63,004 bases of DNA. It comes from a virus. Positions 2,586 through 4,967 of this stretch are shown one piece after another. The stretch lies in the IMG/VR virus record IMGVR_UViG_3300010354_000089, positions 1 through 63,004 of that record, one strand, 5' to 3'. A program made the translations under genes and the position numbers. Under the pieces are notes generated by a model that was not told the origin of the DNA, made no database searches, and saw only the letters and a list, made by a program, of their open reading frames with translations. Positions within the stretch are counted from its first letter, which is position 1. Every line of letters starts with the position of its first letter.

Positions 2586-2768
2586 TCATTTAGGGTTATC
2601 TGTTTTATAAAAGCCTGTACCCTTAAACTGAATTCCAAATGTTCCAAACTGCTTTACCATAGCAGCACCACATTTATCACAAAGCTCTGTCATACTAGAT
2701 TCACTAATTGGCTTGTTAACCTCTTTAGTGTGTTCACAAATTATACATTTATAATCATAAGCTGGCAC
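2586..2768 (-). CDS. FmdB-type zinc ribbon protein
   Basis: A 60-residue protein beginning MPAYDYKCIICEH with a second CDKCGA pair, the CxxC...CxxC layout and N-terminal PxYxYxC signature of the FmdB/CxxC zinc ribbon family. The C-terminus (FKGTGFYKTDNPK) is also typical: family members end in a GxGFY(x)TD motif. Family members are regulatory or of unknown function in bacteria. The gene overlaps the 3' end of the luciferase-like gene by 14 bases, so the two are co-translated. Whether they work together is unknown. Confidence 0.85.
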   Translation of the reverse strand: MPAYDYKCIICEHTKEVNKPISESSMTELCDKCGAAMVKQFGTFGIQFKGTGFYKTDNPK

Positions 2769-3534
2769 TTTGAATCTCCAAAAATCTTTTTGTCATAGCA
2801 TGTATTCTATACTCTTGATCGTCATCAGGATGTCTAGATATTAGAACATCTGTTATACCTAACATATTCATTTTTTTTATTTTATTTATTACTTCTTCTT
2901 CAGTACCAAAAATAGTAGAGTCTTTCATCATCTGACTTTGCTCTTCGGCAAACAGCTTTTTAGCCTCTTCATTTGAGTCTCTAACAATAACCCTACATGC
3001 AGCTATTTTTCTTTTTGTATTTACATTAAGTCCTTCAAGATAGCTTGACCTCATGGCAAGATGAGCATCAGCATATTTTTCTGAATTCTTTATAGTTTTT
3101 AAAGATGTACCGCTTACAACTATCTCTGGCTTATCGTTTAAATATGTTAAAGATGTAAATTTCTCTAGCCATTGAGATGTATAATCTACTCTTTTTTCAT
3201 ATGTATCTAGCAAATCTTTTATAGCCACAACGTCATTAACGCTAGTTTCTTCACTTTTTAAATCACCAGCAGCAACATTTAATATAACCCTATTTTTACT
3301 AATCATATCAAAAGCTTTGCACATCATTGCACAATATTCTGGGCTGACTGAGTATGTTCTAACTGCAAACATATACTTTAACTTATGCTCTTTATTAATA
3401 ATATTTGCAACTCTAACCATATAGTCTGGTATTAAAGAATGATAAACTAATAGAACAGACTCATATCCAGCATAATCTAAAACATTTGAAAGAATTCTTA
3501 GATTCTCTGGCGTATCGTCGCTATGCTGCCTCAT
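2755..3534 (-). CDS. Luciferase-like flavin-dependent monooxygenase
   Basis: A 259-residue protein from ATG 3534 that matches the bacterial luciferase-like monooxygenase barrel (SsuD/LLM type). An early strand (YESVLLVY) is followed by proximity to initiation-region residues, a middle motif SPEYCAMMCKAFDMISKNRVILNVAAGD equivalent to the family's P-x-x-x-A-K-x-x-x-x-D-x-x-S-x-G-R-x-x-L-x-x-G (here read in pieces, residues about 63-91), and GTEEEVINKIKKM, the usual C-terminal cofactor/helix segment. Such enzymes use FMN or F420 with long-chain or sulfur substrates; the substrate here is unknown. The ATG lacks a ribosome-binding site. An in-frame ATT at 3549 has AGATAGG seven bases upstream and would add KLHW, matching the expected first strand. 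Unusual cargo for a phage. Confidence 0.75.
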   Translation of the reverse strand: MRQHSDDTPENLRILSNVLDYAGYESVLLVYHSLIPDYMVRVANIINKEHKLKYMFAVRTYSVSPEYCAMMCKAFDMISKNRVILNVAAGDLKSEETSVNDVVAIKDLLDTYEKRVDYTSQWLEKFTSLTYLNDKPEIVVSGTSLKTIKNSEKYADAHLAMRSSYLEGLNVNTKRKIAACRVIVRDSNEEAKKLFAEEQSQMMKDSTIFGTEEEVINKIKKMNMLGITDVLISRHPDDDQEYRIHAMTKRFLEIQSASL

Positions 3535-3565
3535 CCAATGAAGTTTAATTTTTATACCTATCTAA

Positions 3566-3650
3566 TAATGGGAGCAGTTTAGCCACATGCTCAGGTGGAT
3601 CCTAGGCAACTATGCCCGCATCTGCGACTCCCCAGTGACGGGGTGCAGAC
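3566..3650 (-). ncRNA. GC-rich structured 5' leader, riboswitch-like, class unknown
   Basis: From about 3649 down to 3568 the minus strand has 49 G or C in 82 bases in an otherwise AT-rich genome. Two structural units are visible. The first is a 5' hairpin TCTGC-A-CCCC-GTCACT-GGGG-AGTC-GCAGA. The second pairs GGG and TAGTT with AACTG and CCC around an inner hairpin CCAC-CTGAGCAT-GTGG. The region begins at the predicted transcription start of the promoter at 3655-3683 and ends directly before the AGATAGG of the luciferase-like gene. Position and structure suggest a cis-regulatory RNA. I could not match it to FMN, TPP, cobalamin, SAM or other classes from memory. Confidence 0.55.
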
Positions 3651-3654
3651 TTCT

Positions 3655-3683
3655 ATTATACATTATTTAATTTTGATTGTCTT
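3655..3683 (-). promoter_or_regulatory. Promoter of the luciferase-like gene and its leader
   Basis: AAGACA (-35, 3683-3678), 17-base spacer, TATAAT (-10, 3660-3655) on the minus strand. The -35 lies inside the 3' end of the Hsp20 gene. Transcription is expected to start near 3648, exactly where the GC-rich structured leader begins. Confidence 0.55.
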
Positions 3684-4082
3684 CGGTTTCTTTTCTTCTG
3701 GGATGTTTCTTTCCACAAAGATATCAAGAATGCCGTCTGCCATTTCAGCACGATCAACCTCCATATACTCTCCAAGAGCAAAGGTGCGTGTGAATTTTCT
3801 GGCTGCGATACCTCTATGTAGTACTTCTTGAGAAGACTCTTCGGATTTCTCACCCTTGATTACTAAGCTTCCATTATCCACAGAAACCTCAACTTCACTC
3901 TTGCTAAATCCAGCAAGAGCTAAAGACAACTTGTAAGTATCATCATCAATCTTTACCAAGTTATATGGTGGATATGATTGATGAATTGACTCACGATGGA
4001 TATTTGAAAGACGGTCCAACTCTCTGTTGAAACCAATAAAAAACGGATCATTAAAAAGATCCAATGAAAAATGTGTTACCAT
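3663..4082 (-). CDS. hsp20: Small heat shock protein, Hsp20/alpha-crystallin family
   Basis: A 139-residue protein close in layout to IbpA-type small heat shock proteins. A short N-terminal arm (DPFFIGFNRELDRL) is followed by an alpha-crystallin beta-sandwich from about residue 38 (PPYNLVKIDDDTYKLSLALAG), with the ELxVxxxxGxLxIxGxK-type strand VDNGSLVIKGEK, the A-x-x-x-F arginine region (GIAARKFTRTF), and the C-terminal tail KPKTIKIK carrying the I-x-I anchor. These proteins hold unfolded proteins in an ATP-independent way. In a phage it may protect virion assembly intermediates, as proposed for cyanophage homologues. It has its own strong promoter and a good AAGGAGG ribosome-binding site. 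Confidence 0.9.
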   Translation of the reverse strand: MVTHFSLDLFNDPFFIGFNRELDRLSNIHRESIHQSYPPYNLVKIDDDTYKLSLALAGFSKSEVEVSVDNGSLVIKGEKSEESSQEVLHRGIAARKFTRTFALGEYMEVDRAEMADGILDIFVERNIPEEKKPKTIKIK

Positions 4083-4794: not shown

Positions 4795-4798
4795 AGAT

Positions 4799-4961
4799 GC
4801 CATTCATGCTATCACAGTTCTACTCGCTGTCCTTAAGCTAATGGCTGTTTATCCTAGTAGGTTAGCAGAGCAATCTCCTTCGGCCTGAACACCTTCGTAT
4901 GATGCGCCTACAGGGTAGGTTTCGGATAAACGATCTCCACATAAATTATTCAGATTTATGT
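4799..4961 (-). ncRNA. Unidentified structured RNA inside the tRNA cluster
   Basis: This stretch between tRNA-Asn and tRNA-Leu has no plausible reading frame but three consecutive stem domains on the transcribed strand. They are ACATAAAT/ATTTATGT (4961-4939, loop CTGAATA), a long-range stem GTTTATCC/GGATAAAC (4931-4924 with 4854-4847) enclosing small hairpins such as CCTAC-CCT-GTAGG, and GCCATT/AATGGC (4845-4840 with 4804-4799) enclosing ACAG/CTGT. It would be cut out with the flanking tRNAs. No T-loop or anticodon arm is present, so it is not a tRNA; it is too small for the large phage RNAs GOLLD or ROOL. Confidence 0.55.
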
Positions 4962-4967
4962 TTTGAG

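Follow-up and report, generated by a model that had tools for sequence, protein, structure and literature searches.

Several described RNAs come close to the phage element reported here. Coremin exonuclease-resistant RNAs (xrRNA_C; GUCCGAAGACGUUAAACUAC), found in beny-, cucumo- and other plant RNA viruses (PMC10520033), appear to resemble it in possessing a short hairpin closed by GUC/GAC with a UUAAACU spacer directly 3', and in occupying untranslated or intergenic sites either singly or as repeats (PMC10520033). The coremin spacer GUUAAACUAC and the element consensus NNUAAACUGC have UAAACU in common, but UAAAC and UG were themselves part of our search patterns. The coremin hairpin-1 loop follows the consensus YGAD/YGNNAD, whereas almost every copy of the phage element carries CUGAGCAU or CUNNNCAU there, and because of this departure the element is not a member of xrRNA_C. 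Coremin also has a separate second hairpin; none is required in the phage element, whose 8-nt loop CUNNNCAU is paired with the 3' strand and so forms a pseudoknot. Finally, coremin belongs to plant RNA viruses, while the phage element belongs to bacterial DNA phages. A flaviviral xrRNA stops bacterial RNase J1 in vitro without specific contacts (PMC5760640), and the xrRNAs of this group share with the element the idea of a pseudoknotted roadblock and the use of tandem copies, but their three-way-junction fold is larger and their sequence unrelated. The leader of T4/T2 gene 32 likewise contains an H-type pseudoknot in a phage mRNA (PMC3014915); it is, however, a gp32 operator of other sequence, tied to one gene in T-even phages, and unlike the phage element it does not form a family spread over gene gaps. 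In the STAXI motif (RF01728), too, pseudoknots are repeated close to ssb and other DNA genes, but that motif is found in Enterobacteriales only, carries UUCG loops and needs tandem repeats (PMC2864571). Four element-bearing records gave no significant match to STAXI (best E 4.4, below the cut-off).

Frameshift pseudoknots of the luteovirus type are very small H-type folds with a 2-nt loop 1 and an A-rich loop 3, and the phage element resembles them in size and loops, but its place is 3' of stop codons and its spacing shows no frame periodicity. Compact pseudoknots are also a common riboswitch fold, the preQ1-I and SAM-II riboswitches being small H-type examples; these differ from the element in their conserved nucleotides, and the element has neither a gene theme nor a match in Rfam. 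In fact, gathering and permissive searches with the Rfam 15 covariance models returned no family that matches it, in agreement with a first-pass annotation of this DNA that could assign no known class, and the nearest listing was an IRES at chance level (E 2.8), on the other strand and beside the element. We found no description of the motif in the open-access literature searched, and a 2023 catalogue, reportedly of over ten thousand candidate structured RNAs of viruses and phages, might hold parts of it.

The window (the whole stretch of DNA analysed) is a single virus record, 63,004 bases long and with 35.7% GC, in which genes for RecA, DNA polymerase, portal, capsid and tape-measure proteins are all present. 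The first-pass annotation had placed a sigma70-like promoter, AAGACA-N17-TATAAT, before a GC-rich leader, and it is present at 3655-3683 on the minus strand, with the -35-like AAGACA at 3683-3678, a 17-nt spacer and TATAAT at 3660-3655. It spans the 3' end of the upstream gene, which encodes an Hsp20 small heat-shock protein (3663-4082, minus strand; PF00011, E=7e-20), and the gap beyond. Promoter-like sites are not enriched in the region (6 found, 10 expected in shuffles); TATAAT is nevertheless kept at a fixed place in 17 leaders from related phages, even in those that lack the adjoining hairpin. The 82 nt at 3648-3567 contain 48 G/C rather than the 49 first claimed, and the patch is the most GC-rich in the window: 82-nt stretches with 49 G/C occur only twice in 63 kb, both within the leader patch. 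Its folding energy is unremarkable for its composition (z about -1), and energy alone therefore lends no support to structure. We rejected a plus-strand reading of the patch, which folds no better and has no gene to serve.

Two hairpins fold within the leader, hairpin A (GUCUGCACCCC...GGGG..GCAGAU; 3620-3650, minus strand), which starts at the predicted 5' end of the transcript or very close to it, and hairpin B (GGGCA-UAGU-UGCCU; 3604-3617, minus strand). The two nested stem systems described at first pass overlook the pseudoknot, which forms the conserved part. Since hairpins A and B start at this predicted 5' end or close to it, the transcript of the window would open with structured RNA. 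An alignment of 17 leaders of the window's phage group, from TATAAT onward, shows TATAAT to be conserved, hairpin A optional or exchangeable, hairpin B variable and the 3' block nearly invariant. Hairpin A is missing in L001, L020 and L103 (L001 and L004 keep only the 3' part of the leader), is swapped for other hairpins in L016, L054, L055 and L128, and carries a C-G to U-A exchange in L058; the stem of hairpin B varies in sequence among relatives with its pairing retained (e.g. GGGUCGCUACCC and GGGCAUCGCUGCCC). The 3' half of the leader, GGGCATAGTTGCCTAGGATCCACCTGAGCATGTGGCTAAACTGC, recurs as an exact 44-mer in 6 IMG/VR contigs that are elsewhere only ~75% identical to the window. It is this comparison with relatives that lends structural support to the leader: hairpins A and B recur in some, change in others or vanish, and the pseudoknot at 3598-3572 is retained. 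In L060, L098 and L180 a leader of another type, like CAATGGGCAGTCTTTTTCCTTTCTCTTCTGCCC, precedes the knot and looks like a separate conserved hairpin leader.

As the first-pass annotation had it, the leader stops short of a luciferase-like monooxygenase gene (2755-3549, minus strand; PF00296, E=7e-11). The start of this gene is probably ATT at 3549-3547, a rare start codon, rather than ATG at 3534, as judged from the luciferase-like gene of L128, which has TTG at the same position (the frame was checked in the window); comparing the window with L128, we found no ATG with a Shine-Dalgarno that would fit the conserved N-terminus. A protein search of IMG/VR with the luciferase-like protein returned no match. 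An FmdB-like zinc ribbon gene lies at 2586-2768 (minus strand; PF09723). In relatives that lack the luciferase-like gene (L002, L003, L005, L006), FmdB comes directly after the pseudoknot, and across the close relatives that place is taken by the FmdB zinc ribbon, a nuclease, a luciferase-like or an opposite-strand gene. Because FmdB or a nuclease can stand there, the luciferase-like gene has no special tie to the pseudoknot. Elsewhere in the window, about 170 nt of non-coding, structured-looking sequence lie between the tRNA-Leu and tRNA-Asn genes (4795-4966, minus strand), with long-range pairing between GUUUAUCC and GGAUAAAC; this stretch has an ordinary fold energy (z -0.85) and no match in Rfam, and might be an unrecognised tRNA-cluster RNA.

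The retained block at the 3' end of the leader reads 5'-CCAC-CU-GAGCA-U-GUGG-CUAAAC-UGCUC (3572-3598, minus strand). Stem 1 pairs CCAC (3598-3595) with GUGG (3586-3583) and stem 2 pairs GAGCA (3592-3588) with UGCUC (3576-3572), the two being connected by loop 1 (CU, 3594-3593), a single U between the stems (3587) and loop 3 (CUAAAC, 3582-3577). The element is 26-27 nt long and occurs once in the window, with none expected in shuffles. When IMG/VR was searched with the pattern CTGAGCATNNNNNTAAACTGCTC, in which stem 2 and the loops are fixed and the flanks free, at least 120 matches were found against about 2 by chance (estimated from 18 fixed bases). Among the matches listed, the three stem-1 pairs form in 157, 156 and 155 of 157 distinct copies, with several pair types exchanged; in a larger set of 323 non-redundant copies among the matches listed they form in 98.5, 96.6 and 97.8%, compared with shuffle means of 80, 46 and 48%, and the pairing is lost on sliding by 1 or 2 bases. 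Stem 2 was probed by three scans, each of which barred the usual form of one pair and left that pair free, so that 3 of the 9 allowed combinations would be Watson-Crick by chance. Watson-Crick pairing was restored in 73/74 (an A:U to G:C exchange), 41/48 and 61/73 of the non-redundant copies among the matches listed. A relaxed finder returned 656 matches, as opposed to 34 in reversed sequence. Both stems are thus kept by compensatory change, which is decisive for an H-type RNA pseudoknot with two interleaved covarying stems, and covariation, proposed at first pass as the check on a structured cis-acting leader, bears that proposal out. The base-pair preferences and invariant loops further imply a defined three-dimensional fold. 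The ten bases 3' of the knot are G-poor and often U-rich.

On this comparative evidence the knot in the leader belongs to a widespread family of pseudoknot RNAs that occupy phage intergenic regions. The pseudoknot was found in at least several hundred viral contigs, some of which possess 3-7 copies, and tandem copies lie 42-75 nt apart. Its hosts span the Firmicutes, Actinobacteria, Cyanobacteria, Alphaproteobacteria, Bacteroidota and a few Gammaproteobacteria; named phages that carry it infect Staphylococcus (including the S. aureus phages phiETA, 80, phiMR11 and phiNM4), Lactobacillus, Streptococcus, Geobacillus, Mycobacterium, Arthrobacter, cyanobacteria (Synechococcus phage S-EIVl among them), roseobacters, Moraxella and Vibrio, and it is also present in a crAss-like phage and a microvirus. 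When named phages were searched by blastn, the block was recovered, with one compensatory exchange, from the roseophages SIO1, P12053L and ICBM1-3, where it sits between the genes for class II ribonucleotide reductase and glutaredoxin. The gammaproteobacterial cases are few, namely the Mcat phages of Moraxella, a single Vibrio phage group and a plasmid of Acinetobacter; pairing is intact in all of them, and the Moraxella copies keep a 6-nt spacing from the upstream stop codon. The plasmid copy, at 1501-1527 of the small A. baumannii plasmid p86G (L169), lies upstream of repM, where 2 kb carry no listed gene. A search of 5,426 E. coli genomes gave no match. Two bacterial matches, in Saprospira grandis (L141) and Oscillatoriaceae (L150), are CRISPR spacers that match the pseudoknot exactly.

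Placement was analysed for 357 copies with enough flank among the matches listed. Strictly intergenic positions account for 266 of these 357, compared with 297 of 2080 random sites, and both neighbouring genes run in the direction of the element in 209 cases as against 5 in which both are opposed. From the upstream stop codon to stem 1 the distance is 6 nt in 67 copies, 7 nt in 33 and 8 nt in 19, falls below 6 nt in 11, and has a tail beyond 100 nt. The median distance is 12 nt to the upstream stop and 37 nt to the downstream start; the next start codon mostly lies 20-40 nt beyond the knot, and the Shine-Dalgarno is outside it in most copies. From the stop spacing and the positions of the start and Shine-Dalgarno, it follows that the element fills the stretch of mRNA covered by neither the terminating nor the initiating ribosome. 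No three-base periodicity was seen in the stop-to-knot spacing, which argues against recoding, and with spacings running from 6 to more than 100 nt we rejected a stimulator of readthrough or frameshifting. An association with promoters as a general rule was rejected as well, since an upstream TATAAT occurs at background frequency over all copies. In L002 (5182-5200), L005 and relatives, a stretch after the knot such as CUCCUUAAAAUUUAAGGAG could mask the Shine-Dalgarno of FmdB and is in competition with stem 2 for the last bases of that stem; the window lacks it. In the Firmicute phages L166, L167, L171 and L154, a second conserved stretch, CTTATGCAA, stands 15-25 nt past the knot and before the scaffold gene, often followed by a hairpin.

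The genes that flank the element are diverse. Upstream we found Hsp20 (15 of 121 scanned), ribonucleotide reductase (12 or more), ssDNA-binding proteins and head genes, and downstream thioredoxin or glutaredoxin, head scaffolding proteins, nucleases, PhoH, FmdB, polymerase and primase. Copies precede scaffold or capsid genes in Staphylococcus B236, Lactobacillus phiEF-1.1, Lj771, the thermophile phage D6E, Streptococcus Javan383 and Anoxybacillus A403, and tRNA genes in phages Labelle, Molivia and NMeng1. Neither the upstream nor the downstream genes scanned share a metabolic theme, and a ligand-sensing riboswitch is therefore unlikely.

We tentatively favour, with confidence somewhat short of even, the possibility that the pseudoknot acts as an mRNA-decay roadblock, by analogy with viral exonuclease-resistant RNAs. 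The knot would pose a mechanical block to host ribonucleases that move from the 5' side, whether the RNase J exonuclease or 5'-tethered RNase E, so that decay starting upstream, or at the 5' terminus, would be stopped on reaching the knot, and either the downstream cistron or a short 3' RNA would gain stability. In the window, a short transcript made from the promoter at 3660 would have its 5' end protected by the knot along with hairpins A and B. Consistent with this are the covariation of both stems, the conserved loops, the co-directional intergenic placement, a position at the junction of cistrons that differ in expression, the tandem copies and, in the window's phage group, a promoter just before the knot. 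The element is also found repeatedly directly 5' of tRNA genes and of the genes for scaffold and major capsid protein, two products required in large amounts, and a spacing minimum of 6 nt is to be expected of a roadblock because the fold must survive translation.

RNase J scores above the family cut-off in 13 of 19 GTDB genomes that bear the element and just below it in 1 more, 4 of the 19 have no match, and a Bacteroidetes genome has distant matches only; this host bias fits a link to 5'-to-3' decay, though it is no proof. Against RNase J stand the copies in phages of hosts that appear to lack this enzyme (Moraxella, Vibrio, a crAss-like phage) and on the Acinetobacter plasmid, and because of these copies and the 4 genomes without a match we rejected RNase J as the sole target. 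The action of 5'-tethered RNase E/G could also be obstructed by a knot. Beta- and gammaproteobacteria depend almost wholly on RNase E/G (PMC3997798).

The main rival to the roadblock is a role at the 3' end of the upstream message, whereby the knot would guard that message from 3'-to-5' exonucleases or terminate transcription together with a U-rich tract. We consider it unlikely, but several observations suit it. The element sits closer to the upstream stop than to the downstream start; Hsp20 remains constant upstream while the downstream gene changes; some 30 copies (by crude gene calls) stand at gene ends with no co-directional gene after them, some between convergent genes; and a T-rich tract (at least 5 T in 8 nt) comes right after the element in 91 of 302 copies, compared with 16-19 in controls. 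The convergent cases and the T-rich tract also tell against a roadblock. That tract is nevertheless absent in 70%, and we rejected an intrinsic terminator, of which a U tract after the stem would be expected in most copies. Moreover, about 209-220 copies are found inside co-directional rows, often before scaffold or capsid genes where termination would be harmful, and the promoter of the window's group is just upstream of the knot.

The loop nucleotides are fixed in phages of distant hosts, as would be expected of a conserved partner, and the knot might instead be a site for RNA polymerase, the ribosome or a ribosomal protein, for example in put-like antitermination as in HK022, or in translation termination and re-initiation. 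By known ribosome geometry, a ribosome positioned on the stop codon would have the knot at its mRNA entry when the spacing is 6 nt. However, the spacing is long-tailed and not of one value, its lack of periodicity speaks against recoding, genomes with several copies and 3'-end positions ill suit put-like antitermination, and tertiary contacts would explain the loop conservation equally well; we hold this reading, too, to be improbable. Interleaved inverted repeats could in principle constitute a DNA site, be it for a protein, for replication or recombination, or for a fold of ssDNA, and some copies do lie near ssDNA-binding protein genes or in a microvirus; but orientation with the genes and avoidance of stop codons and ribosome-binding sites are signals at the mRNA level, and small loops with an A-rich loop 3 fit an RNA triplex pseudoknot, which makes a DNA-level role very improbable. 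A sensor of flavin or another small molecule, as conjectured at first pass, is the least probable of all, for despite a fold common among riboswitches and a 3' strand of stem 2 that could pair with the Shine-Dalgarno in L002 and L005 (a CUCCUUAAAUUUAAGGAG-like stretch), such pairing is absent in the window, no Rfam riboswitch matches, and the same element stands beside dozens of unrelated genes, mostly outside the ribosome-binding site, in up to 7 copies per contig and at the 3' ends of convergent genes.

Returning to the decay roadblock, and with rather more doubt than attaches to the roadblock itself, we suggest that the element could be the first exonuclease-resistant RNA of bacterial DNA phages, a very widespread and as yet unnamed class. 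Phages would thereby tune how stable single cistrons of a polycistronic message are, those for scaffold and capsid for instance, through 27-nt roadblock knots placed shortly past stop codons, and the strategy would be convergent with that of plant and animal RNA viruses. That one fold of 26-27 nt is shared across distant host phyla suggests that phages in general either counter or exploit some basic host machine, and its presence in Staphylococcus aureus phages and in roseophage SIO1 means that laboratory systems are already at hand. Should the knot act as a decay roadblock, this would account for phages obtaining more capsid than portal from one message, and the knot would offer a tiny, portable mRNA stabiliser for bacterial engineering.
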